Source of the DNA: Arthrobacter nitrophenolicus
GTDB lineage: Bacteria; Actinomycetota; Actinomycetes; Actinomycetales; Micrococcaceae
Length of the DNA stretch: 64,000 bases
Direction of reading: 5' to 3'
Assembly: GCF_000332815.1 (NCBI RefSeq)
Contig: NZ_AOFD01000001.1
Coordinates: 62,001 to 126,000 of the forward strand
Numbering within the stretch: the first letter of the stretch is position 1; every line of letters starts with the position of its first letter. A program made the position numbers and the translations under genes. Below, piece by piece: positions 1,998 to 61,397 of this stretch. The notes beneath the pieces are model-generated. The model was not told the DNA's origin. It searched no databases and saw nothing but the letters and a program-made list of their open reading frames with translations.

Positions 1998-3163
1998 GTG
2001 GTCAAGTTCTTCACAACGGACGGCAAGATCAGCTTTTTCAAGGTCGGTGCCCAGATGCTGGTGCTCTGTGCACTGGTGGTGGGGCTCGTAGCTTCGTGGG
2101 CAATAACAAAACCGTCACGGTGAACGTGGACGGCAAAGTCACGTCCGTGCAGACTTTCGGCGGAACGGTCGGCCAGGTGGTTAAAAGCGCCAACCTGGAA
2201 CTCAAGGCGACGGACAGGGTTTCCCCCGCAGTTGACGCCACCGTCCAGGACGGCACCGTCATCAACGTGAACCAGGCCAAGGAAGTCACCGTGAGCCTGG
2301 ACGGGGCGGAAAAGACCGTCAACACCACCGCCCAGGACGTGGAGGACCTGGTGACCGAACTCGGTGTTGCCAGTGCCTCATCGGTATCCGCTCCCAAGGA
2401 CGCCCAGCTCGCCGTCGAGGGTTCATTCGTGTCCATCTCCACGCCCAAGACCGTCAGCATCGTCGCCGACGGCAAGGTGGACACCACCACCACTACGGCC
2501 GCTACCGTGGGCAATGTCCTGGAAGATGCAGGCCTGGCCCTTGGCGCCAACGACCGCACCTCCCAGCCCGCCAACGCACACGTGGTCAACAACATGGTGA
2601 TCAAGGTTTCCCGTGTTGATAACGCCCAGACCGCTGTGGCCACCGAGGACGTTGATTTTGAAACGGTGACCACCGAAAGCGCCGAACTGCTGAAGGGTGA
2701 AAAGGAAGTCACCCAGGCCGGTTCCGCCGGCAAGGTGGAGAAGACCTACAAGCTGGTCCTGGTGGATGGCCGCGAGGCCTCCCGGACCCTTGTGTCCGAG
2801 ACGGTCACCGTGCAGCCGGTGGCGGAAAAGATCACGGTAGGCACCAAACCCAAGCCCGTCACCCAGGCTGCCCCGGCAACCACCGGCAGCAACACCGGTG
2901 CTGCCGCGCCGGCGATGATGAACGAGGCCATGTGGGACAAGATTGCCCAGTGTGAGTCCGGTGGAAACTGGAGCATCAACACTGGCAACGGCTACTACGG
3001 CGGCCTGCAGTTCGATATCCAGACCTGGATTGGCGCCGGCGGCGGGGCCTATGCCCCCAACGCCAGCCTCGCCACCAAAGCCCAGCAGATCGACATCGCC
3101 AACCGCGTCTACGCACAGCGCGGCCTGCAGCCCTGGGGCTGCGGCTGGGCAGCCACCAGCTGA
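1998..3163 (+). CDS. rpf: Resuscitation-promoting factor, RpfB type (frameshift near 2092)
   Basis: An exported muralytic lytic transglycosylase that restarts growth of dormant cells by cleaving peptidoglycan. In order: a short cytoplasmic start (VKFFTTDGKISFF), one membrane helix (MLVLCALVVGLVA), three DUF348 repeats beginning NKTVTVNVDGKV, a G5 domain (about TTESAELLKGEKEVTQAG through VSETVTV), and the C-terminal lysozyme-like domain with catalytic Glu in IAQCESGGNW, ending GLQPWGCGWAATS. The frame changes between GLVA and FVGNNK at about 2090-2093. One extra T (GTA GCT TTC GTG) restores it, so one base is probably missing. The GTG at 1998 starts at the conserved N-terminus but has no strong ribosome-binding site. 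The next gene, rsmA, follows in the same direction. Confidence 0.9.
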
Positions 3164-3316
3164 CCGCCAGCTGCCCCGCCCTTGGCGCCTGCGGCCGGGT
3201 CCGGACTTTCCGGGCCCGGCCGCAGCCGTTAACCGGCGGCCCGGAGTTCTTTTCCGGACAGGTCCGGCATATGCGGCTGTCCCGGACGGAATCTCCGCGC
3301 GGGATAGGATACCTAG

Positions 3317-4189
3317 GTGACTGAACCCATCCCCGCCGCGCCCGCACCGCTGTTTGGTGCCTCCGATATACGCCGGCTGGCGGAGGAAATAGGGGTCAGG
3401 CCCACCAAGACCCTCGGCCAGAACTTCGTCATCGACGGCAACACCATCCGCCGGATCGTCGCTGCCGCTGACGTGGAGCCTGGCGAGACAGTACTGGAGG
3501 TGGGCCCCGGCCTCGGGTCCCTGACCCTTGGACTGCTGGACGCCGCTGCCGCTGTGGTCGCCGTCGAAATTGATCCCGTCCTTGCGGCGAAACTGCCCGA
3601 AACCGTGAAGGAATGGCGTCCCGCCGCCGCAGCTGCCTTCCACCTGGTGCACGCCGATGCCATGAAGGTCACCGGACTTCCGGTCCAGCCCACAGCACTT
3701 GTGGCCAACCTGCCATACAACGTGGCGGTGCCCGTGGTGCTGCACCTGCTGGAGCAATTCCCCAGCCTGCAGCACGGGCTGGTCATGGTGCAGGACGAAG
3801 TGGCGGACCGCCTCGCGGCCGGCCCCGGTTCGAAGACCTATGGCGTCCCATCGGTGAAGGCCGCCTGGTACAGCCACATGCGCAAGGCCGGCGTCATCGG
3901 CATGAATGTCTTCTGGCCCGCGCCAAAGATCCACTCCGGCCTGGTTGCCTTCACCCGCCGCGAGCCGCCGGCCACCACGGCAACCCGTGAACAGGTGTTC
4001 GCGGTGGTGGACGCCGCGTTCGCGCAGCGCCGCAAAACCCTGCGTGCCGCGCTTGCCGGCTGGGCCGGGGGAGCGCCGGAAGCTGAACGCTGCCTGCTGG
4101 CAGCCGGCGTGGACCCCACTGCCCGCGGTGAAGTCATTGACATCGCCGCGTTTGCCCGGATCGCCGAGGCCAAGGAAACCGGGGCGTGA
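3317..4189 (+). CDS. rsmA: 16S rRNA dimethyltransferase RsmA/KsgA
   Basis: A 290-residue S-adenosylmethionine-dependent enzyme that dimethylates the two adjacent adenosines near the 3' end of 16S rRNA during 30S maturation. Visible family motifs: [10 protein letters not shown] near the N-terminus, the SAM-binding motif [11 protein letters not shown], the acidic strand VVAVEIDP, and catalytic motif IV NLPYN. The start is GTG at 3317. It has no Shine-Dalgarno sequence, but TAGGAT sits at 3305-3310, exactly 6 nt upstream, as expected for a leaderless message. The stop overlaps the ispE GTG start in a GTGA junction, so the two are translationally coupled. Length and motifs are normal for the family. 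Confidence 0.97.
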
Positions 4190-29358: not shown

Positions 29359-29423
29359 CGAGACTTTTGTCCAGATACGGCGACCATAAGGGCCTTGAGG
29401 TCGCCGTATCTGGACAAAACTCG
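29359..29423. repeat. Long near-perfect palindrome (TTTTGTCCAGATACGG element)
   Basis: The left arm (29359-29385, starting CGAGACTTTTGTCC) pairs with the right arm (29399-29423, starting GGTCGCCGTATC) with only a two-base bulge, around a 13-nt loop. It sits 6 nt beyond the nnaR stop. No T-run follows on either strand, so it is more like a REP-type dispersed palindrome than a classical terminator. Confidence 0.85.
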
Positions 29424-29429
29424 AAGGGG

Positions 29430-30578
29430 TTAGACGCGGATCCGGTAGCCCCGCTTGACCACGGTTTCCACCAGGCGTCCGTCCGGCAGCGAGGACCGCA
29501 GCCGGCTCACGGTCATGTCCAGGGCGTGGACGGATCCCCGCAGTTCCAGCAGCTCGGAGAGCGACTCCCGCGAGAGGACCGCGCCGCCCGCGCCCAGCAG
29601 CGCCCGCAGCAGCAGCAGCGGGGCAGGCGCCAGTTCCACGGGCTGGCCGTCGATGCGCAGGCTCCGCCCCCGCAGCTCGATGTTCCCGGACCTGGTTTCC
29701 AGGCGGCGGACGTGGTTCAGCGCCAGGTGCTCGCAGACCAGCCGGATCAGGGCACCCATGCGGAAGCGTTCCGGGACCAGGGGCGTCACCCCTGCGTCAA
29801 TCAGTGGCTGCGCAGTCACGGGCCCCACCACCGCGGTGGTGACGTTCGTCTTCAGGCTGTCGATCAGCTGCTTGTAGACGCCCATCTCGTGCGCCGTGCT
29901 CCACATCGCATCCACGGCGGGGGCGCTGGTGAAGGTGAGGACGTCCAGGTTCCCGCTGCAGGCGGCCTCGATGAGGCGCGGAAGCTTGTCCTCGCCGTCG
30001 GGCTTCACCCAGCGGTAGGGCGTAACGGTCAGGACGGTGGCGCCGGACATGCGCAGGCGCTCCAGCTGGCGGACATCCGTGTAGCCGTGCAGCTGCACCG
30101 CCACCGTCTTGCCGCGGACACCTTCGTTGAGCAGCATGTCCACCAGCGTGGCGGTGGTCTCGTCGCTGCTGATTCCGACGTCGGCGAGTCCGGCCGCGCG
30201 CACGGCGCCGCGGGCCTTTGGTCCCCGCACGAACATCCGGCAGGCGCCCAGGGTCTCCAGGAGCTCGTCGCCGATGCCGAAGGAATCCGCGGCCTCGCAC
30301 CAGCGCCGCATGCCGTAGGCGGTGGTGGCGATGCACAGGTCCGGCTTGGCGGCGATGATGGCCCGGGTGTCCTCGATGAGGCGCATGTCCTCCTGGACGG
30401 GGGCGATCTTCAGGGCAGGGGCGTGCAGCACTTCAGCGCCGCGGCGTTCCAGGGCGTCGATCAGGTCCTGGGACCTGCGGTCCGAAGTCACGCCGATGCG
30501 GAAACCCTCCAGCGGGGATTCTGCAGCATCGGGTGTTTCTTCGACCTGCGGTGTTTCGGCCGGTGCAAGTGCAGTCAT
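29430..30578 (-). CDS. nnaR: NnaR-like regulator: HemD domain fused to winged-helix DNA-binding domain
   Basis: A 382-residue protein. Residues up to about 280 form a uroporphyrinogen-III synthase (HemD) fold (FRIGVTSDRRSQDLIDALER through TTAVVGPVTAQPLIDAG). The last about 90 residues are an OmpR/PhoB-type winged helix (LRIDGQPVELAPAPLLLLRA, DMTVSRLRSSLPD, VVKRGYRIRV). In Streptomyces and Mycobacterium this fusion, NnaR, activates nitrate/nitrite assimilation genes with GlnR; the location here, at the end of nirB-cobA, supports that role. ATG 30578 has AAGGA 11 nt upstream; ATG 30596 overlaps the cobA stop (ATGA) and is the alternative. Whether it retains synthase activity is unknown. Confidence 0.88.
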   Translation of the reverse strand: MTALAPAETPQVEETPDAAESPLEGFRIGVTSDRRSQDLIDALERRGAEVLHAPALKIAPVQEDMRLIEDTRAIIAAKPDLCIATTAYGMRRWCEAADSFGIGDELLETLGACRMFVRGPKARGAVRAAGLADVGISSDETTATLVDMLLNEGVRGKTVAVQLHGYTDVRQLERLRMSGATVLTVTPYRWVKPDGEDKLPRLIEAACSGNLDVLTFTSAPAVDAMWSTAHEMGVYKQLIDSLKTNVTTAVVGPVTAQPLIDAGVTPLVPERFRMGALIRLVCEHLALNHVRRLETRSGNIELRGRSLRIDGQPVELAPAPLLLLRALLGAGGAVLSRESLSELLELRGSVHALDMTVSRLRSSLPDGRLVETVVKRGYRIRV

Positions 30579-30592
30579 GGGGGTCAATCCTT

Positions 30593-31624
30593 TCATGAAC
30601 CCAGCAGCGAGGCCGCCAGCCTGTCCAGGTCGGCGGCGGCCTCAGCATGCCCGCGGTTGGCCTCCGCCACCCGAACCACCTCGCCGATGACCAGCACGGC
30701 CGGGTTGCTGCACCCGGAAGCGGCCGAGGTGATGGTGCCCAGGTCTGCGATGGTGGTCCGCTGGCCCGGTCGGTAGCCGCGTTCGACGACGGCCATCGGC
30801 ATGTCGGGGCGCATGCCTGCCCGGCGGAGTCCGGCGGCCAGCTGGTGGAGGGTGCCGATGCCCATCAGCACCACGATGGTGCCGCCCAGGCCGGCGAGGT
30901 GCTGGTGCTCCTTTTCAGTGAGCGGCGCGTGGCCGGAAACCACGGTGAACATGTGGCTGACTTCCCGGTGCGTGACCGGGATGCCGGCAGCTGCCGGAAC
31001 GGAGATGGCGCTGGTGACACCGGACACGACGTGGACCTTGACGCCGGCGGCCACGCATGCGGCCACTTCCTCGCCGCCGCGGCCGAAGACGTAAGGGTCA
31101 CCGCCCTTGAGGCGGACCACGTTGTTGCCGGCGAGGGCGCTTTCCACCATGAGCTTTTCGATGTCAGACTGGCTGACCTTGTGGTGGCCCGGCTTCTTGC
31201 CCACGTCCACCAGTTCGGCGGAGGTGAGGGACGGCAGCTCCTGGTACGGAGCGAGGCGGTCGTAAAAGACCACATCAGCGTCGCGCAGGGCCTTGACCGC
31301 GGCGACGGTCAGGAGGTCGGTGGTGCCGGGGCCGCCGCCCACCAGGGTGACGTGGCCGGCGGCGCCGGCAGCGGGTTCGGCGGCCACGGGAATCCCGGTG
31401 ATCCGGCAGCGGTCCAGGAGGCGTCCCAGCCGGGCTGGCCGTCGTCGACCGCCGCCACGAGGAACGGCCGCTCGGGCAGCGGGCCGTCATGGCCCGCGCT
31501 GCGGGGTGCTCAGGCGATACACGACGGCGCCTGCGGCTTCGTAGCGGCGCACCGCCTGCCGGGCGGCAGTGTCGGAGCCCGTGACCAGGACGTCGCGTCC
31601 GGTGAGGTCGATGCTGAGCTGCAT
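30593..31624 (-). CDS. cobA: Uroporphyrinogen-III C-methyltransferase with N-terminal sirohaem-synthase-like segment (two compensating frameshifts)
   Basis: The C-terminal about 260 residues form a complete SUMT that makes precorrin-2 for sirohaem, the NirB cofactor: VTLVGGGPGTTDLLTVAA, RLKGGDPYVFGRGGEE, VSGVTSAISVPAAAGIP and TIVVLMGIG. In front, from ATG 31624, is a short Rossmann-like segment (MQLSIDLTGRDVLVTGSDTA) like the CysG/Met8 dehydrogenase N-terminus. Its frame is lost near 31495 (an extra G, GGG for GG) and regained near 31420 (a missing C), reading GHDGPLPERPFLVAAVDDG between. The indels cancel, leaving SUMT in frame. ATG 31624 is 2 nt beyond the nirB stop. It is followed by nnaR. 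Confidence 0.88.
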
Positions 31625-31626
31625 GG

Positions 31627-34257
31627 CTATACCTCGTTCTCGTTGCCGGAGCGTACCGGGATGGAGGCCCCGATCAGGACCTTGCCCTTCTCTTCCGGAG
31701 TGGCGGGGCGCATCTGGCCGCGCTCGTCCGGGACGAAGGTGATGGAGTCGTCCTTCTGGTCGGGGGCGTTGACGAAGGAACGGAACCGGCGCAGGCGCTC
31801 GGGGTCCTTGAGGGTGTCAGCCCACTCGTCGATGTAGGTGTCCACGTGCTTGGCCATGGCCGCCTCGAGGTCCTCGGCGATGCCCAGGGTGTCCTTGACC
31901 ACCACGTCCTCGACGTGCTTGATGCCGCCGTCGAGCTCTTCCTGCCAGCGAGCCGTGCGCTGCAGGCGGTCCGCGGTGCGGATGTAGTACATGAAGTAGC
32001 GGTCGATGTACTTGATCAGCGTTTCGTCATCGAGGTCCTTGGCGAGCAGCTGTGCGTGCGCGGGGGTTGCACCGCCGTTGCCGCCGACGTACAGGTTCCA
32101 GCCGTCCGCCGTGGCGATCACGCCCACGTCCTTGCCGCGGGCCTCGGCGCATTCGCGGGCGCAGCCGGAAACGCCCATCTTGAGCTTGTGCGGGCTGCGC
32201 AGGCCGCGGTAGCGCAGCTCCAGCTTGATGGCCATGGCCACCGAATCCTGGACGCCGAACCGGCACCAGGTGGAACCGACGCAGGACTTCACCGTGCGCA
32301 GGCTCTTGCCGTAGGCCTGGCCGGATTCGAAGCCGGCATCCACCAGTTCCTTCCAGATTTCGGGGAGCTGTTCCAGCCGGGCGCCGAACATGTCGATCCG
32401 CTGGCCGCCGGTGATCTTGGTGTACAGGTTGTACTTCTCGGCCACGGCGGCAATGACGCCGAGCTTCTTGGGCGTGATCTCACCGCCGGCGATGCGCGGG
32501 ACCACCGAGTAGGTGCCGTCCTTCTGCATGTTGGCCAGGGCGCGGTCGTTGGTGTCCTGGAGGGTGCCGCGGCCGGCGTCCAGCACGTAGGCGCTGTTCT
32601 GGCTGGCAAGGATGTTGGCGATGGTGGGCTTGCAGATGTCGCAGCCTGCGCCCTTGCCGTACTTGGCCATGATCTCTTCGAAGGAGGTCAGTTCCAGGAC
32701 GCGGATGGCGTCGAAGAGTTCCTGGCGGGACAGCTCGATGTGCTCGCAGAGGGCCTTGGAGACCTCAACGCCGGACTTGGTGAGTTCGGTTTCCAGCAGC
32801 TTCTTGAGCATCGGAACGCAGGAGCCGCACTGGGTGCCGGCGCGGGTGCAGCCCTTCAGCTCGCCGAGTTCCTGGACGGGTGCGTTGCCCTCGCAGGCGC
32901 CGCAGCCGTTGATGGCGTCGCGGATGCTTCCCGCGGTGACGTTGTTGCAGGAGCACAGGGTGGCGTCGTCGGGCAGTTCGGTCTCGGGTGCGTCGCCGCC
33001 GCCGGCGGCGCTGAGGAACGCGCCGGGCTCGGCGGGAAGTTCGCGGCCGAGGAGCGGGCGGAGGCTCATGTACGGCGAGGCGTCGCCGACGAAGATGCCG
33101 CCCAGCAGGGTCTTGGCATCGTCGGTGGTGACGATCTTCTGGTAGACGCCGCGGGCCGGGTCGGCGTAGACGATCTCGAGGGCGTGCTCGGTTTTGGCGA
33201 AGGCGTCGCCGAAGCTTGCCACGTCCACGCCGGAGAGCTTCAGCTTGGTGGCGGTGTCGAAGCCGGGGAACGTGGCGTCGCCGCCGTGGAGGCGGTCGGC
33301 CACGATCTCCGCCATGGTGTTGGCGGGAGCCACCAGGCCCAGGCACATGCCGCCGTAGTTGGCCACCTCGCCAATGGCCCAGATGCCGGGCACTTCGGTT
33401 TCGCAGTAGTCGTTGATGACCACGCCGCCGCGGGGACCCAGGCTGAAGACCTGTTCCTCGCCCTCGGCGGCGCGGAAGAGTTCGTCGCGGGGCCGGACGC
33501 CGATGGCCACGATGACCATGTCCGCTTCGATGATGCGGCCGTCTGCCATGAGGACGCCGGTGACCTGGCCGTCGTCGTCGGAGAGCACCTCGGACGGGAA
33601 GACGCCACCGTGGACTTCGAAGCCCTTGGCCTTGATGAGCCGGCCCATCGCCTGGCCCGCGCCTTCGTCCAGCTGGGTGGCCATCAGCCACTGGGAGCCG
33701 TCAATGACGATGGGGTTGGCGCCAAGCTGTTCCGTGCCGGCGGCCGATTCGAGGCCCAGCAGGCCGCCACCGATGGTGACGGCGTTGACCTTCCGGCCGA
33801 GCTTCTCGGTGAGTTCGGCAATCTTCTGATTAATGGTCCAGACGTCTTCGAGCGTGCGGTAGACGTGGGTGAGCTCGTTGCCGGGGATGGGCAGGCGGGC
33901 GGCGTTCGAGCCGGTGGCCACCACCAGTTCGTCATAGGGGTAGGTGTTGCCGGTGGAAGTCTCCACGGTCTTCGCGGCGGCGTTGATCTTCACAACGCGC
34001 TCGCCGGTCTTCAGCTCCAGCGAAGGGTGGTCCCACATGGAAGCGGATCCCAGGGTCAGGTCCACGCCGGTATCGGTGAGGGCCTTGGACAGCGCAACGC
34101 GGTCGTAGGGGAGGTGTGCTTCCTCGGTGAGGACCGTGACATGCCAGCCATCGAGGCCACGGGCATGCATCGCGTCCGCAAAACGGTGGGCCGCGGGGCC
34201 GCCGCCGGCGACGACAATGCGGCGCGTTGTCTCGGTGTTTGAAGTCTGTTCGGTCAC
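31627..34257 (-). CDS. nirB: Assimilatory nitrite reductase large subunit
   Basis: An 876-residue NAD(P)H-dependent nitrite reductase that takes nitrite to ammonium. In order: FAD domain (RRIVVAGGGPAAHRFADAM), NAD(P) domain (VTIGGGLLGLESA), BFD-like [2Fe-2S] domain (CSCNN then GTQCGSC), nitrite/sulfite reductase ferredoxin-like half domains, and the sirohaem/[4Fe-4S] site (KSCVGSTWCRFG and GVSGCARECAEA, four Cys). The open frame extends to 34314, but GTG at 34257 with GAAAGG 8 nt before is the likely start. It heads nirB-cobA-nnaR. Unusually, nirD is on the opposite strand across a shared promoter region with a GlnR-like array. Confidence 0.97.
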   Translation of the reverse strand: MTEQTSNTETTRRIVVAGGGPAAHRFADAMHARGLDGWHVTVLTEEAHLPYDRVALSKALTDTGVDLTLGSASMWDHPSLELKTGERVVKINAAAKTVETSTGNTYPYDELVVATGSNAARLPIPGNELTHVYRTLEDVWTINQKIAELTEKLGRKVNAVTIGGGLLGLESAAGTEQLGANPIVIDGSQWLMATQLDEGAGQAMGRLIKAKGFEVHGGVFPSEVLSDDDGQVTGVLMADGRIIEADMVIVAIGVRPRDELFRAAEGEEQVFSLGPRGGVVINDYCETEVPGIWAIGEVANYGGMCLGLVAPANTMAEIVADRLHGGDATFPGFDTATKLKLSGVDVASFGDAFAKTEHALEIVYADPARGVYQKIVTTDDAKTLLGGIFVGDASPYMSLRPLLGRELPAEPGAFLSAAGGGDAPETELPDDATLCSCNNVTAGSIRDAINGCGACEGNAPVQELGELKGCTRAGTQCGSCVPMLKKLLETELTKSGVEVSKALCEHIELSRQELFDAIRVLELTSFEEIMAKYGKGAGCDICKPTIANILASQNSAYVLDAGRGTLQDTNDRALANMQKDGTYSVVPRIAGGEITPKKLGVIAAVAEKYNLYTKITGGQRIDMFGARLEQLPEIWKELVDAGFESGQAYGKSLRTVKSCVGSTWCRFGVQDSVAMAIKLELRYRGLRSPHKLKMGVSGCARECAEARGKDVGVIATADGWNLYVGGNGGATPAHAQLLAKDLDDETLIKYIDRYFMYYIRTADRLQRTARWQEELDGGIKHVEDVVVKDTLGIAEDLEAAMAKHVDTYIDEWADTLKDPERLRRFRSFVNAPDQKDDSITFVPDERGQMRPATPEEKGKVLIGASIPVRSGNENEV

Positions 34258-34332
34258 TGTGGGCCTTTCGCATGGGCCGCAGCGGTGCTCCGGCCTTCTC
34301 TGACGAGTGTCCATCCAGACTAGGTAGAGGCA

Positions 34333-34370
34333 GTTTCGCCTCAGTTTCCCAATTGTTTCGCGAACTTAAC
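34333..34370 (-). promoter_or_regulatory. GlnR-like operator upstream of nirB
   Basis: On the minus strand, GTTAA-n6-GAAAC-n6-GAAAC-n6-GAAAC: four half-sites at exact 11-bp steps (plus-strand starts 34333, 34344, 34355, 34366), 76-113 nt before the nirB start. GlnR of actinobacteria binds GTNAC-n6-GAAAC type sites. The array is also 157 nt before nirD and may serve both genes. Confidence 0.7.
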
Positions 34371-34526
34371 TTCTGCATCACGAACTCATTTCCGGCCGGG
34401 TTAGGTGTCTTTTACGCGCCGGACACATTTGCTGCATCCCTACGAAACACCCCGCGCCTAGCGTGGAATCCGGCGGCACAGGCTGCCGCAACCCACGGAC
34501 AACAAGCACAGGGAAAGGAGCCGGAC

Positions 34527-34913
34527 ATGACGGCAACACTGGAACTTGGGGCGCTCGACACCGCAACCGCCGAGGCCGGAGCGGCCGCTGCCGCCGGGTG
34601 GCACCGCGTCTGCCACCTGGACGACCTGGAACCCTCCTGGGGTGAAGCGGCCCTCGTCGCCGGGCGCCAGATCGCGCTCTTCCGTACCGGGCCCGGTGAA
34701 GTCTTCGCGGTGGCCCACGAGGATCCGGCCACCGGAGCGCACGTCATGGCCCGCGGGATCCTTGGCTCCAAGGGGGCCCGGCCCACCATCGCCTCGCCCC
34801 TGCACAAAGAGGTCTACGACCTCGAAACCGGCGAGTGCTTCAGCACCCCCGGCCTGAAGCTTGCCGCCTTCAGCAGCCGCATCGTGGACGGCTTCGTCGA
34901 AGTGGAGCTGTAA
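34527..34913 (+). CDS. nirD: Nitrite reductase small subunit
   Basis: A 128-residue Rieske-fold protein of the NirD family, which lacks the Cys/His ligands of true Rieske proteins; none are visible here in the right spacing. Characteristic segments: VCHLDDLEPSWGEAALVAGR, IALFRTGPGEVFAVAHEDP, and ASPLHKEVYDLETGECFS. The ATG has AAAGGAG 6-7 nt upstream. It is divergent from nirB rather than downstream of it, and ends at a terminator hairpin shared with the mutase gene. It must partner NirB to give full activity. Confidence 0.93.
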   Translation: MTATLELGALDTATAEAGAAAAAGWHRVCHLDDLEPSWGEAALVAGRQIALFRTGPGEVFAVAHEDPATGAHVMARGILGSKGARPTIASPLHKEVYDLETGECFSTPGLKLAAFSSRIVDGFVEVEL

Positions 34914-40226: not shown

Positions 40227-41789
40227 TCAGGCGGCTGAGACCGCCTGAAAATGTTTTTCGATCAGCCCCTTGATGTCCTCGTGGCAGCCGCCGCAGCCGG
40301 TTCCGGCGCGGGTTGCCTTGGAGACTTCAGCCACGGTGGAGCAGCCCTCCGTGACGGCGTCCTGGATGGCAGTGCCGCTGACACCCGCGCACCGGCAGAC
40401 GGTGCCTGCAGGATCGGCCGTTCCGGCTCCGGGCAACTGGTCCGGGCCGTCCAGGCGCAGCAGCAGCGACCGGTCCGCCGGCAGTTCGGCCGAACGCTCA
40501 AACAGTCCCACGAGTTCGGCGGCGGTCCGGGGCATGCCCACCGCCACCAGCCCTTCCAGGACACCGCCCCGGGTGGTCATCTTCACGTAGCGGCCGTGTT
40601 CCGGATCCGCCCACTGGGCCACCTGGAGCCGGGGACGCCCGTTCACGGCGCCAGCGTTCAAGGCTTCGTCATCCCAGGGATCGGCGCTGTTGTCGCCGGC
40701 CACGGCCATGTTCAGGCCGCGGGCCTTCAAAACAATCACGCCGGCCTGTTCCGCCGGCAGTTCCGGGAGGACCTCTGCGTCGTCGAGGGCGCCGGAGGCG
40801 AGCAGGGTCAGGTACTCCGCCAGCCATTCGGCCTGGCGCCAGCCGGGACCCACCAGGCCGGACGGACCCTTGGCGTTGCGGCAGGCCGAGCAGTCCGGGT
40901 CCGGGCAGCGCACCTCCGCGCAGTCGCCGATGGCGAAGATGTGCGGCTCATGGTGGGCGCGGAGCCGGTGGTCCACGAGGATGCCTGCAGCGGTGGACAG
41001 CCCGCAGCCTTCGGCCAGTTCGGTGCGGGGACGGACGCCGCATGAGATGACCAGGAGGTCGCCGTCGATCGCCGAACCGTCATCGAGCAGCAACGCCGAG
41101 AAACCGCCGTCGGGCGCGTTGTGTTCAACACCGGTGGATCGCGCGTTTCCGGCCATCCGGACGCCGCAGCGGCGCAGCCCTGCAGCCAGCACGGCGCCGC
41201 CGCCGCGGTCGATGTTGCGTCCCAGCGGGTGCGGGCCGTTGTGGACCACCGTCACTGTGGCGCCTTCCTCGGCCGCGGCGAGGGCTGTTTCCAGGCCCAG
41301 GACACCGCCGCCCAGGACCACCACGCGCTTGCCGCCGTCCACCGCCCGCCGGAGCACGTCGGCGTCGCGAAGGTCGCGCAGGGCCGTCACGCCTGCCGGC
41401 AGGACCGGGGAGGTGGGGTCCGGGTTGACGCCCGTCAGGTTGGGGATGACCGGACGCGAACCGGTGGCGAACACCAGCCGGTCATAGTGGACGGAGTCGC
41501 CACCGGACAGGAGGACCTGCTGCCGGGCGCGGTCCACGCGCCGGACCCGGACGCCCAGGCGGACGTCAACGCCCTCGGCCACCAGGGCGGCGGCGTCGGA
41601 GAGGGCGAGGGCGTCGGCCGTGGTGCGGCCAACTCCGAGGTCCGCCACCAGGACGCGGTTGTAGGCGGCTTCAGCTTCCTCGCCCACCACGGTCAGTCCC
41701 GCGTGTCCGGCACGTACGGCGGGGAGGAGTTCGTCAACCAGCCGGGCAGCCACCGGGCCGAATCCAACAATGACAACCTGCTCGCTCAT
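40227..41789 (-). CDS. nasC: FAD-dependent nitrate reductase electron-transfer subunit
   Basis: A 520-residue protein: FAD domain (VVIVGFGPVAARLVDELLPA), NAD(P) domain (VVVLGGGVLGLETALAAAEE), second FAD motif (IFAIGDCAEVRCPDPDCSAC, with an unusual Cys cluster), and a C-terminal BFD-like [2Fe-2S] domain (TVCRCAGVSG then GTGCGGC). It resembles the NADH-linked electron-transfer component of assimilatory nitrate reductase and probably feeds NasA. ATG 41789 overlaps the nasA stop by 4 nt (ATGA), so the two are coupled. The name nasC versus nasB varies between organisms. Confidence 0.88.
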   Translation of the reverse strand: MSEQVVIVGFGPVAARLVDELLPAVRAGHAGLTVVGEEAEAAYNRVLVADLGVGRTTADALALSDAAALVAEGVDVRLGVRVRRVDRARQQVLLSGGDSVHYDRLVFATGSRPVIPNLTGVNPDPTSPVLPAGVTALRDLRDADVLRRAVDGGKRVVVLGGGVLGLETALAAAEEGATVTVVHNGPHPLGRNIDRGGGAVLAAGLRRCGVRMAGNARSTGVEHNAPDGGFSALLLDDGSAIDGDLLVISCGVRPRTELAEGCGLSTAAGILVDHRLRAHHEPHIFAIGDCAEVRCPDPDCSACRNAKGPSGLVGPGWRQAEWLAEYLTLLASGALDDAEVLPELPAEQAGVIVLKARGLNMAVAGDNSADPWDDEALNAGAVNGRPRLQVAQWADPEHGRYVKMTTRGGVLEGLVAVGMPRTAAELVGLFERSAELPADRSLLLRLDGPDQLPGAGTADPAGTVCRCAGVSGTAIQDAVTEGCSTVAEVSKATRAGTGCGGCHEDIKGLIEKHFQAVSAA

Positions 41790-44009
41790 GAGGCCTCCGT
41801 CGTTTGAAGCATTTTGCTGGACAGGGGTGCAGCCACGGCCCGCACCCAAACCTTGTTGAATTTGAACTCAGGCATTCCGGATGTCGGGTCCGTGGCGGCC
41901 TCTGTCAGCCGGTTTGCGCTGCCCAGGCCGGGGAAGTGGAACGGCAGGAAGACAGTGTCCGGCCGGATGTCGGTGCTGAGCTCGGCCTTGCACACCACCT
42001 CGCCGCGCTCGTTCGCCACGGACACCAAAGAGCCGGCCATGATGCCCATGGCCTCGGCGGCCGCGGGGTGGACCTGGACCATCGCCTCGGGCTGGGATGC
42101 CAGCAGTTCGGTGACACGGCGTGTCTGCGCACCCGACTGGTAGTGCTCCAGGAGCCGGCCGGTGATGAGGGTCATGGTTTTCGCTGCCGGGTCAGGGCTG
42201 GCGGCAGGCGTACGACGGCGGCGGGGGACCACGGCGGTCATCACGCTTTGCCGTCCGGGTGGGCGAAGCGGTCCCGGAACAGCCGGGGCGTGCCCGTGCT
42301 GCCGGCAGGGTAGGGCCAGTAGGCGGCTTCCCCGCGGTCCAGCATCGCGTAATCGATGCCTGAGTAGTCGGCCAGGCCACCGGCGGAGGCGAGGCGCAGT
42401 TCCTCGAAGACGGTTTCGGGGTCCTCGCTGTATGTGGACGGGGCGTCCAGCCGCTCCGCGAGCCGCGCCATGATCCACAGTTCGCTGCGGGCACCGGCGG
42501 GCGGGGCCAGGGCCCGGCGGCGGCGAAGGACCCGTCCTTCGAGGTTCGTGAGGGTGCCTTCCTCCTCGGCCCACTGGAGCACCGGAGGATGAGATCGGCC
42601 TCTGCGGCGGTCTCCGACATGAAGAAATCGCAGACCACCAGGAAGTCCAGGCTCCGCAGGCCGGCGGTCACAGCGTTCGCGTCAGGGGAGGCCACCACCA
42701 CGTTGGAGGCATGGATGAACAGGCACCGGACGCCGTCGGGCTGTCCCAGCGACTTCAGCAGCTGGACCGCGGGCAGGCCGGGACCGGGAATGGTTTCCTC
42801 CGGAACACCCCAGACGCGGGCCATGTGGGCGCGGGCGGCGGGGTCGGTGATCTTGCGGTAGCCGGGCAGCTGGTCGGCCTTCTGGCCGTGCTCGCGGCCG
42901 CCCTGGCCGTTCCCCTGGCCGGTGAGCGTGCCATAGCCGCTGCGTGCGGACCCGGGCAGGCCCAGCAGGAGGCTGAGGTTGATGGCCGCGGTGGCGGTGT
43001 CGGTACCGTCCGTGTGCTGTTCCACGCCGCGGCCGGTGAGGATGTAGCTGCCGCCCTGGCGGGCGCCGGCGGCAAGCCTGCGGGCGGTTTCCCGGATGAG
43101 GTCGGCGGGGACGCCGGTGAGGGACTGGACGCGTTCGGGCCAGAAGGAGTTGACGCTGCGGACCACGGCGCTGTAGCCCGCAGTGCGTTCCTCGACGAAG
43201 GCCGTGTCCACCAGGCCTTCGTGGATGACCACGTGGGAGATGCCCAGCAGGAGGGTGAGGTCGGTGCCCGGCAGGGGCTGGAGGTGGAGGCCCCCGCCGT
43301 CGGCCGTGAAGGCGGCCGTGGCGGAGCGGCGCGGATCCACCACAATCAGCCCGCCGGCGTCGCGCGCTCCCTTGAGGTGCTGGACGAAGGGCGGCATGGT
43401 TTCGGCCACGTTGGAACCGAGCATGAGGATGGTGCTGGCGGTGTCCAGGGCCTCCAGCGGGAAGGGCAGCCCGCGGTCCACGCCGAAGGCGCGCATTCCG
43501 GCGGCCGCCGCGGAGGACATGCAGAAGCGGCCGTTGTAGTCGATGCGCGAGGTGCGCAGGGCCAGCCGGGCAAATTTGCCCAGCATGTAGGCCTTTTCGT
43601 TGGTGAGCCCGCCGCCGCCGAACACGCCGACGGCGTCGGCACCGTAGCGTGCGCGCGCGTCCCGGACGGCGGAGGCGGCCAGGTCCAGGGCGTGGTCCCA
43701 GCTGATGGGCCGGTGCACGCCGTCGGGACCTTTGAGGAGGGGCTCGGTGATCCGGCCCGGGTGGTTCAGGAGGGTTGCGGAGGTCCAGCCCTTGCGGCAC
43801 AGGCCTCCCCGGTTGGTGGGGAAATCGCGTCCGCTGACCTCAAGGGCGGCAGGTGCCGCGGCTGCCGGGGCGGAGGAGTGCAGGGTGGGCAGGAGCGGCA
43901 CGGGGACTGGCCCCGGCTGGGGAGCCGGGGCCAGTTCCGCTGGAGACGTGAGCGTCATGGCGCACTGCAGGGCGCAGTAAGGGCAGTGCGTGTCGGCGCT
44001 GTTGGTCAT
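41786..44009 (-). CDS. nasA: Assimilatory nitrate reductase catalytic subunit (two frameshifts)
   Basis: A molybdopterin oxidoreductase reducing nitrate to nitrite, about 740 residues when repaired. The N-terminal [4Fe-4S] cysteines are in [12 protein letters not shown] and [10 protein letters not shown]. Mo-bis-MGD segments include [20 protein letters not shown] and [11 protein letters not shown]. Near the C-terminus are [19 protein letters not shown] and [18 protein letters not shown]. The frame breaks near 42585 (CTCCGG should be CTCCCGG, giving [13 protein letters not shown]) and near 42242, after HPDGKA. ATG 44009 is one base after the narK stop. Both lesions look like missing bases, and the repaired protein is complete. 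Confidence 0.9.
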
Positions 44010-44010
44010 G

Positions 44011-45479
44011 TTAGACGTGTCCCATCGCATTTCGGTTGGCGTTGCGGATGTAGCAGAACCAGCAGACGGCGAGCATCAGGCGTAGGCCGCGACGAAGCCG
44101 TAGAAGGCCGGGGTGTAGGAGCCGCTGGCCGAGTTCGATGCGTTCAGCACCTGCGGGATGACGAAACCGCCGTAGGCGCCGATGGCGGAAATCAGGCCCA
44201 GTGCCGAGGAGGCCAGGCGCTGGGTGGCCACCGAGCTTGCCCCGGATTTCGCTGCCCGGCTGGAAGTGGCGAAGATGACCGGGATCATGCGGTAGGTGGC
44301 GCCGTTTCCGAAGCCGCTGGCGGTGAAGAGCATCAGGAAGAGGACCAGGAAGAGCCAGAAGTTCTTCAGCGGCAGGGTCCAGATCATGGTCAGGGTGATG
44401 ACGCCCATGGCGGCGAAGGCGGTCACGGTCATCCGGGCTCCACCCATGCGGTCTGCCATGCGTCCGCCGTAGGGGCGGGCCAGGGAGCCCACCAGGGGGC
44501 CGAGGAACGCGAGCGAGAGGGCGACGGTACCGACGGCGATCGAGGAGAACTCCGGGAAGTAGTCCTTGATGAGCTTGGGGAACACGCCGGCGAAGCCGAT
44601 GAAGGAGCCGAAGGTGCCGATGTACAGCAGCGCCATGATCCACAGGTGCGGTTCCTTGAGCGCCGCGACGGAGCCGGCCACGTCACCCTTGGCACTGGTG
44701 AGGTTGTCCATGTACTTCCAGGCGCCGAAGGCGGCGAGCAGGATCAGCGGGACCCACATCCAGCCCGCAATGGGCAGGTTGACGGTGCCCGCGGCCAGGA
44801 GGGTGATGGCGATCGGAACGGCGAGCTGCGCGACGGCGGCACCGACGTTTCCGCCCGCGGCGTTCAGTCCCAGCGCCCAGCCCTTTTCGCGGGCCGGGTA
44901 GAAGAAGGTGATGTTCGCCATGGAGCTGGCGAAGTTGCCGCCGCCGAAACCGGCCAGGGCGGCGATCAGCAGCATGACACCGAACGGCGTTTCCGGATTG
45001 GAGACACACAGGGCCAGGCCGATGGAGGGGATCAGGAGCAGCAGGGCCGAGACGATGGTCCAGTTGCGGCCGCCGAAGCGGGGGACCATGAAGGTGTAGG
45101 GGATGCGGAGCGTGGCGCCAACCAGGCTGGGCATCGAGATGAGCCAGAAGATTTCCGACGTGGAGAAGGTGAATCCGGCGGCGGGGAGCTGGACCACCAC
45201 GATGGACCACAGCTGCCAGACGACAAAACCGAGGAATTCGGCGAAGATGGACCAGTTCAGGTTGCGGCGGGCGATGGAGCGGCCTGCGGTTTCCCACTGC
45301 TCCTTGTTTTCGGCATCCCAGTTGGCAATCCAGCGGCCGGGACGGAATTCAAGGGCGGGGGCGTCAGTGGTGCGGGTAGTGCCGGGCTGTGCGCTGGCGG
45401 ATGCGGCTGCTGGCCCTTGTGCATCGTCAAGGTCCAGGGAATTGCCGGTGCCGGCATCTGCGGTGCGGTCGACAGTCAC
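44011..45479 (-). CDS. narK: Nitrate/nitrite transporter, NarK/NasA MFS type (frameshift near 44078)
   Basis: A 12-helix major facilitator of the NNP family, about 489 residues. The family signatures are GFGGGNFASSMANITFFYP and LGLNAAGGNVGAAVAQ. The written frame stops early at FVAAYA. Adding one C (GCCTGATG to GCCCTGATG) restores the last helix, ALMLAVCWFCYIRNANRNAM, and a stop at 44011-44013, immediately before nasA. The start is GTG at 45479 with GGAGG upstream. A GlnR-like array lies 50-87 nt upstream. It heads the narK-nasA-nasC operon. Confidence 0.93.
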
Positions 45480-45528
45480 GGGTTACCTCCTTCGGGGGGA
45501 TGTTGTCCTTCCAAGGTAGGGACGGCGC

Positions 45529-45566
45529 GTTTCACAGACCGACGCCGGATGTTAACGCGTTGTGAC
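45529..45566 (-). promoter_or_regulatory. GlnR-like operator upstream of narK
   Basis: On the minus strand GTCAC-n6-TTAAC-n6-CGTCG-n6-GAAAC, with half-sites at exact 11-bp steps (plus-strand starts 45529, 45540, 45551, 45562), 50-87 nt before the narK start. The first and last half-sites match the GlnR consensus and the third does not. The rest of the 45480-45757 gap holds the MHS gene promoter, which I cannot place precisely. Confidence 0.6.
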
Positions 45567-45757
45567 ATTTGCCTATCGGGCCGTTGCGGCCACCGTTAGG
45601 ACTTCCCGGAGATCCACCCAATGAGACGGACGACACGGGTCCGTATCGTGGACCTTTCGTCCATTGACTGGACCGCGGGAACTAAGATTGAACTCTAACT
45701 ATTTCGAGCCGGGGGCTGTCTGCGTCCGGCGGGTTCTCACGAAAGCGTTTACCTTTT

Positions 45758-60439: not shown

Positions 60440-60471
60440 ATTTTCTGCCGTGCCCCCAGCCGCACCACTAT

Positions 60472-60487
60472 GTTACTCACCGGTAAC
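60472..60487. promoter_or_regulatory. Fatty-acid-regulator-like dyad before the SDR gene
   Basis: GTTAC-TCACCG-GTAAC is a perfect 5+6+5 dyad at the -35 position relative to TACAGT (60498-60503), the putative -10 of the SDR gene. Its shape resembles operators of TetR-type fatty acid regulators in actinobacteria; the specific regulator is a guess. Confidence 0.5.
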
Positions 60488-60509: not shown

Positions 60510-61397
60510 ATGACTTCGAGCAATGACGCTGCGCATGCCATCCCAAGCCCCTATCGCGCTTCGGGTTCGCTTCACGGACAGACGGTCCTCATCTCCGGCG
60601 GAAGCCGCGGCATTGGCCTCGCCATCGCCGTCCGCGCCGCCCGGGACGGCGCCAATATCGTCCTGATGGCGAAGACCGGGGAACCGCACCCAAAGCTCGC
60701 CGGCACGGTCCACACGGCGGCCCGGGAGCTGGAGGAGGCAGGCGGCCAGGCACTGCCCCTGGTGGGGGACGTGCGCCGCGACGAGGATGTTGCCCGTGCG
60801 GTTGCGGCCGCCGTCGAACGGTTTGGCGGCATCGACGTCGTCATTAACAACGCCTCCGCCATCGACCTTTCGCGGACTGATGACGTGGACATGAAAAAGT
60901 ACGACCTCATGCAGGACATCAACGTCCGCGGCACGTTCCTGCTCTCCAAGCTGGCGCTGCCGGCGCTGCGTGCGTCTGGGCAGGGCCAGATCCTCACCCT
61001 TTCGCCGCCCCTGAACCTCAACCCCTTCTGGGCAGGTAAACACCTGGCCTACACCATGGCCAAGTACGGCATGAGCCTTACCACCCTGGGGCTTGCCGAA
61101 GAGCTGAAGGCCGACGGGATACGGGTGAATTCGCTCTGGCCCTGCACACTCATAGACACAGCCGCGATCCGGAACATGCCGCACGGCGACGTGATGGTCC
61201 AGGCAGCCCGGGGACCGGCCATCATGGCGGACGCCGCCCACGCCATCCTCACCGGCGGCAACCTGGGCGCAGGTGGCTCGCCGAGCGGCAATTTCTACAC
61301 GGATGAGGAGGTCCTGGCGGCCGCGGGGGTCAGCGATTTCAGCCCCTACAGCCTCGGCGCGCCCGAGGACCAGCTGGTTCCGGATATCTTCCTCTAG
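60510..61397 (+). CDS. Short-chain dehydrogenase (HSDL2-like)
   Basis: A 295-residue classical SDR. The nucleotide motif is VLISGGSRGIGLAIAVRAAR, the structural motif VVINNASAIDLS, and the catalytic Tyr-Lys is in YTMAKYGMS, although the usual Ser is replaced in LTLSPPLNLNPFW. It resembles the hydroxysteroid dehydrogenase-like 2 group, active on acyl-CoA or lipid-derived alcohols. ATG 60510 has TACAGT exactly 6 nt upstream and so a leaderless message. It shares a divergent region with the carboxylase beta gene, supporting a role in fatty acid metabolism. Confidence 0.9.
   Translation: MTSSNDAAHAIPSPYRASGSLHGQTVLISGGSRGIGLAIAVRAARDGANIVLMAKTGEPHPKLAGTVHTAARELEEAGGQALPLVGDVRRDEDVARAVAAAVERFGGIDVVINNASAIDLSRTDDVDMKKYDLMQDINVRGTFLLSKLALPALRASGQGQILTLSPPLNLNPFWAGKHLAYTMAKYGMSLTTLGLAEELKADGIRVNSLWPCTLIDTAAIRNMPHGDVMVQAARGPAIMADAAHAILTGGNLGAGGSPSGNFYTDEEVLAAAGVSDFSPYSLGAPEDQLVPDIFL

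Follow-up and report, generated by a model that had tools for sequence, protein, structure and literature searches.

In Streptomyces, the glnA, glnII and nirB promoters are described as carrying two GlnR boxes, that is, four half-sites in the order a1-b1-a2-b2 (PMC5826061, PMC10704036), and the sections cited report activation of nirB by GlnR in both Streptomyces and mycobacteria (PMC10704036, PMC3662644, PMC4950008). In Mycobacterium smegmatis, the nirB and narK transcripts are reported to drop in both glnR and nnaR mutants, and the NnaR motif given there, ctCAC[ac]-N16-[tg]GTGag, lies beside the GlnR site at a fairly conserved spacing (PMC6277429); a related form of this motif is quoted for S. 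coelicolor and M. tuberculosis (PMC11162112). As for Arthrobacter, higher expression of nirB, nirD and nasA on nitrate or nitrite than on ammonium is reported for strain 24S4-2 (PMC9975570), and nirBD is reported to be raised by nitrate in strain M7-15 (PMC12010642).

The locus analysed here lies in a 64-kb stretch of DNA, referred to as the window. It resembles the Streptomyces two-box promoters, as described in the sections cited, in having four half-sites at 11-bp steps upstream of nirB; it differs from them in that the a2 position of the nirB arm reads GAAAC and in that the array is doubled, as a mirror image toward nirD, round an NnaR-type repeat. Like M. smegmatis msmeg_0427 (nirB) and msmeg_0433 (narK), it probably belongs to a type of element with a CAC-N18-GTG core near the GlnR site, at a fairly conserved spacing, and the start site lies downstream of the GlnR site in the M. 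smegmatis NnaR/GlnR promoters, as the layout would also have it here (PMC6277429). The M. smegmatis promoters are apparently one-directional, however, whereas here a single inverted repeat stands between two outward arms, with nirD split from nirB. There are also more than four half-site-like units, as in S. coelicolor amtB with its three GlnR boxes, but the extra units at amtB are described as a GlnR/PhoP box (PMC5826061), whereas those found here are read as an NnaR site. The parts are of known kind, and a four-half-site GlnR array at nirB is an ordinary layout. A mirror-symmetric nirB/nirD element with fixed distances was not found in the open-licence PMC literature, whose scope leaves out the S. 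coelicolor GlnR-regulon, nnaR and GlnR/PhoP competition papers, so that this is no proof of novelty. Our preferred reading, which we consider probable, is that GlnR and NnaR jointly activate nirB and nirD from this divergent, mirror-symmetric element.

Genes and regulators

The element lies between the divergent nirB and nirD genes, and the nirB cluster encodes an NnaR-type protein, recognized as such by its domain content (HemD plus DNA-binding domain):

31627..34257, minus strand: nirB, nitrite reductase large subunit, GTG start (TIGR02374, 909.8 bits, cut-off 578.35)
34527..34913, plus strand: nirD, nitrite reductase small (Rieske) subunit (TIGR02378, 87.3 bits, cut-off 74.65; PF13806)
30593..31387, minus strand: uroporphyrinogen-III C-methyltransferase, siroheme for NirB (TIGR01469, 254.4 bits, cut-off 185)
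29430..30596, minus strand: nnaR-type regulator, HemD domain plus OmpR-type DNA-binding domain (PF02602 and PF00486; NF005568 'uroporphyrinogen-III synthase', 510.3 bits, cut-off 273)

ATG 34314 was considered as the nirB start and dropped for GTG 34257, which is preceded by GAAAGG; the GTG is more likely because the ATG would precede the expected transcription start. Just past nnaR, at about 29366-29415, a long inverted repeat between T and A runs can be seen by eye, terminator-like both ways.

GlnR is encoded in the same genome by two gene pieces (L011) that match PDB chain 4o1h, deposited as 'Transcription regulator GlnR'. Their further PDB matches (4o1i, 8hih, 8hig and 8hml) carry general regulator names; 8hih and 8hig we take to be GlnR structures. 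In the draft assembly, the glnR frame is broken inside the DNA-binding domain (C11, about 2816-3500), probably through an assembly error, since open glnR frames of at least 261 aa are present in all 22 same-genus relatives searched.

A four-half-site array toward nirB

On the minus strand, from 34370 down to 34333, GTTAA, GAAAC, GAAAC and GAAAC follow one another at exact 11-bp steps with 6-nt spacers, precisely where an earlier note on this DNA had put four such units. The counts given below refer to 81 rows anchored on the array without gaps, namely the window plus the best 80 of 156 loci encoding a relative of the NirB N-terminus, with no row dropped; 79 of these best 80 loci have Arthrobacter or Pseudarthrobacter in their titles, the remaining one being a Micrococcaceae MAG.

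34366..34370, minus strand: putative GlnR half-site a1 toward nirB, GTTAA (81/81 rows; 0 changes on the tree)
34355..34359, minus strand: putative GlnR half-site b1 toward nirB, GAAAC (81/81 rows)
34344..34348, minus strand: putative GlnR half-site at the a2 position toward nirB, GAAAC, with b-type letters (79/81 rows)
34333..34337, minus strand: putative GlnR half-site b2 toward nirB, GAAAC (GAAAC 73/81, GAAAT 8/81)
34317..34322, minus strand: probable nirB -10 box TAGTCT, 10 nt past the last GAAAC (TA in 81/81 rows; six types, all TAnnnT)

The array has the half-site geometry of a GlnR box (5 nt, 6-nt gaps, 11-bp step). As for the a/b alternation (gTnAc / GaAAc), b1 and b2 both read GAAAC, and a1 (GTTAA) and a2 (GAAAC) are neither of them GTnAC. 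A GlnR site is the best reading of the array, and it lies in the right place for one, at nirB and divergent from nirD, as the note had proposed. Under a first-order Markov model, the expected number of GAAAC triplets stepped by 11 bp is 2.9e-5 for both strands of the 64-kb window. The strict four-unit pattern has one match in the 4.39-Mb genome, which is this array, and the reversed control pattern also has one, so that the genome count alone is weak evidence. The idea that such an array is stronger than usual finds no support, because two boxes (a-b-a-b) are the typical layout of GlnR targets, described at Streptomyces nirB as well (PMC5826061, PMC10704036).

The 11-bp array could be bound mainly by another OmpR-type regulator, be it MtrA or, for example, PhoP, in competition with GlnR or in its place. 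The motifs and DNA-binding domains of MtrA and GlnR are called nearly identical, and MtrA is reported to bind mycobacterial nirB (PMC6277429); mtrA is also present in this genome (L005; NF040689, 396.9 bits, cut-off 300), so that MtrA may compete for the site. GAAAC-type b-sites beside nitrite reductase genes, together with an NnaR-type site, are nevertheless the known GlnR/NnaR setting, and we consider it very unlikely that MtrA or a similar regulator is the main binder, even if some part for MtrA is conceivable. The GlnR reading of the array is the one retained below.

A central inverted repeat as a putative NnaR operator

The nirB array is directly adjoined upstream by an inverted repeat, with GTGA at -11 and TCAC or TAAC at -33 in the 81 aligned rows:

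34378..34403, minus-strand reading: probable NnaR operator, T(C/A)AC-N18-GTGA, TAAC...GTGA in the window (GTGA 81/81; TCAC 65/81, TAAC 16/81)
34388..34392, minus strand: GAAAT within the inverted repeat, keeping the 11-bp register of the array, with weaker conservation (GAAA[CT] in 73/81 rows; 4.2 changes per column)

The core reads CAC-N18-GTG in 65 of the 81 rows and AAC-N18-GTG in the other 16, and the array always follows at a fixed 11-bp step; the window belongs to the 16 rows, its left half being TAAC and not TCAC. The core spacing is that of the published NnaR motif, and the match is limited to the core: the base preceding GTG is C in the window instead of t/g, which is why we grade the repeat only as a probable NnaR operator.

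Since GTGAT and GAAAT, the two further units upstream of the nirB array, share its 11-bp register, all the stepped units might be taken as six GlnR half-sites in a row, with no part for NnaR, and three GlnR boxes are indeed described at Streptomyces amtB (PMC5826061). Several observations argue against such a row: GTGA and TCAC/TAAC form an inverted pair that is conserved round a more variable centre, similar inverted pairs recur in front of narK and in some other families, and the CAC-N18-GTG spacing is that of the M. smegmatis NnaR motif (PMC6277429). We set the six-half-site row aside as unlikely, given that GTGAT pairs with TCAC/TAAC at the NnaR spacing and that the middle GAAAT is less conserved; for GTGAT, half of an NnaR-type site is probably a better reading than a GlnR unit.

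A mirror arm toward nirD and a shared geometry

From the central repeat, a second 11-bp-stepped row can be followed in the opposite direction, to nirD. The plus-strand half of the repeat that leads into this arm reads GTGAG in 65 of the 81 rows and GTTAG in 16, and TTTAC, GACAC, a weak TGCAT and GAAAC come after it:

34411..34415, plus strand: GlnR-like half-site a1 toward nirD, TTTAC (80/81 rows)
34422..34426, plus strand: GlnR-like half-site b1 toward nirD, GACAC (78/81 rows)
34433..34437, plus strand: weak a2 position toward nirD, TGCAT (TGCAC 35, CGCAC 13 and TGCAT 11 of 81; 8.4 changes per column, spacer-like)
34444..34448, plus strand: putative GlnR half-site b2 toward nirD, GAAAC (79/81 rows)
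34459..34464, plus strand: probable nirD -10 box TAGCGT, 10 nt past GAAAC (the ten commonest types, 78/81 rows, are all TAnnnT)

The weak third unit fits with published cases of a non-essential a2, one at Streptomyces amtB and another at the nas operon of Amycolatopsis (PMC5826061). Both arms finish with GAAAC-N10-TAnnnT, both -10 boxes lie 71.0 bp from the midpoint of the repeat (34390.5), and the distance from repeat half to -10 box is 59 bp on both arms in the 81 aligned rows, apart from one row (L083) whose nirD arm does not keep the register. When both strands of the window are ranked by a composite score, whose consensus was derived from these arms and set after seeing them, the two arms come first and second (24 and 21 of 25). 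The next scores belong to the first arm in a shifted register (18) and to five places, the narK promoter among them, that reach 17. A sigma-70 consensus scan of 34250-34530 returned 0 promoters (shuffles, 0.1), flagging neither -10 box and showing no -35 box; this is compatible with activator-dependent promoters and is no proof of the -10 boxes. Altogether, the earlier interpretation of the region as a GlnR site is supported as regards site type, location and conservation; it finds no support as regards unusual strength, and it had missed the NnaR-type repeat, the mirror array and the shared -10 geometry.

Conservation in close relatives

Whether related genomes keep the periodic half-sites had been set beforehand as one half of a test of the GlnR interpretation, and the array passes this half: of the 20 half-site letters of the nirB arm, 18 or more are kept in 81/81 rows. 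Changes were counted by parsimony, column by column, on a tree that FastTree built from 567 nt of the nirB coding sequence. The 43 core columns, which comprise both NnaR halves, units a1 to b2 of the nirB arm and units a1, b1 and b2 of the nirD arm, show 0.70 changes per column versus 8.70 in the 88 spacer and flank columns, i.e. about twelve-fold fewer; on the same tree, nirB codon positions 1, 2 and 3 show 3.4, 3.0 and 13.8 changes per column. The Mann-Whitney p value of 5.4e-11 is only descriptive, as the columns were labelled with the alignment already in view.

Certain spacer columns hardly vary either, namely parts of the spacers within the nirB array and the GCAGAA (34371-34376, minus strand) that follows GTGAT and precedes GTTAA. 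Formally spacer, this GCAGAA is nearly invariant in the 81 rows and may reflect an extra contact that the layout leaves unexplained.

As the 80 loci are the closest relatives (best 80 of 156), one could argue that the conservation merely reflects shared ancestry or a constraint on DNA structure, the motif having no regulator. On the tree, however, spacers and third codon positions have changed many times and the half-sites hardly at all, and the pattern recurs at narK and in other families, which makes such an explanation extremely improbable.

The narK promoter and its neighborhood

A one-directional version of the element lies upstream of a transporter gene of the same window:

45513..45598, minus strand: narK promoter, TAAC..GATAG-GTCAC-TTAAC-(CGTCG)-GAAAC-N10-TACCTT (16/16 same-genus genomes, including this one)
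44076..45479, minus strand: NarK-type nitrate/nitrite MFS transporter (PF07690; TIGR00886, 289.7 bits, below the cut-off of 311.7)

The same succession is found in 16/16 same-genus genomes: CTCAC or CTAAC, GATAGG, GTCAC, a TTAAC-like unit, a weak unit, GAAAC or GAAAT, N10 and TAnnnT, the right operator half being GATAG at the narK promoter of the window. Neither of the two narK upstream regions from other families has the pattern (0/2).

Other features of the window were recorded in passing. A nitrate-reductase-like molybdoprotein with Molybdopterin and Molydop_binding domains is spread over two overlapping frames (41786-44030, minus strand), reflecting either a broken gene or an assembly error, and a NirB-like electron-transfer protein is encoded at 40227-41849, minus strand. 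GTTAC-N6-GTAAC-type sites, possibly of MtrA or GlnR type, are present on both strands at 60450-60487, ahead of a gene for a short-chain dehydrogenase (60510-61397).

Spread beyond the close relatives

The composite score was also applied to 53 further nirB upstream regions, five from the same genus (L140-L144) and 48 (L132-L139, L145-L184) from 47 genomes of other genera, the latter chosen by hand from match lists (one of which has a match in 115/246 genomes) and including one region of only 140 bp (L179). Both arms score at least 21 of 25 in 5/5 of the same-genus regions. Outside the genus, a score of 18 or more is reached in either direction by 21 of the 48 hand-chosen regions (5/8 and 16/40), and the other 27 stay below 18; in Markov shuffles of 40 of these regions (25 each), a score of 18 was reached at a rate of 0.001 (1000 shuffles). 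More specifically, in genus g21, which belongs to another family, the gene divergent from nirB is nirD in 4/4 regions (L132, L145, L146 and L147; over the TIGR02378 cut-off). There the arm toward nirD scores 21, 21, 20 and 19 and the arm toward nirB 16, 20, 15 and 18, with an operator centre that is shorter, about 16-17 versus 18, an approximate value taken from positions. Within the genome of the window itself, a looser operator-plus-array pattern with at most one mismatch occurs at four places, two of which are this element, and the control matches three times; with about as many control matches as true ones, this search is uninformative.

A model for joint control of nirB and nirD

In the model that we propose, the array would be the nirB arm of a mirror-symmetric element that lies between the two divergent genes. 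The central inverted repeat would be bound by NnaR, probably in dimeric form, and the GlnR half-sites would step outward from each repeat half by 11 bp, about one helical turn, as far as the -10 box. Under nitrogen limitation, GlnR and NnaR lined up on one face of the helix would recruit RNA polymerase to both promoters, so that both subunits of the assimilatory nitrite reductase would be made together.

A more specific proposal, which is possible and which we put forward tentatively, is that a single NnaR dimer sets both outward GlnR arrays in phase, at exact helical turns, and that the resulting symmetric complex activates in both directions and couples the output of nirB to that of nirD. 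If true, the element would be a fixed-geometry bidirectional activator site that balances two enzyme subunits despite their split genes.

The loose rule that GlnR and NnaR sites lie close together would give way to an exact geometry, with 11-bp steps, 59 bp from operator half to -10 box and a shared mirror plane. The element would be a natural case for studying the cooperation of two DNA-binding domains of OmpR type on the same face of the DNA, and it bears on how soil actinobacteria that assimilate nitrate and nitrite may keep subunits encoded on opposite strands in step.
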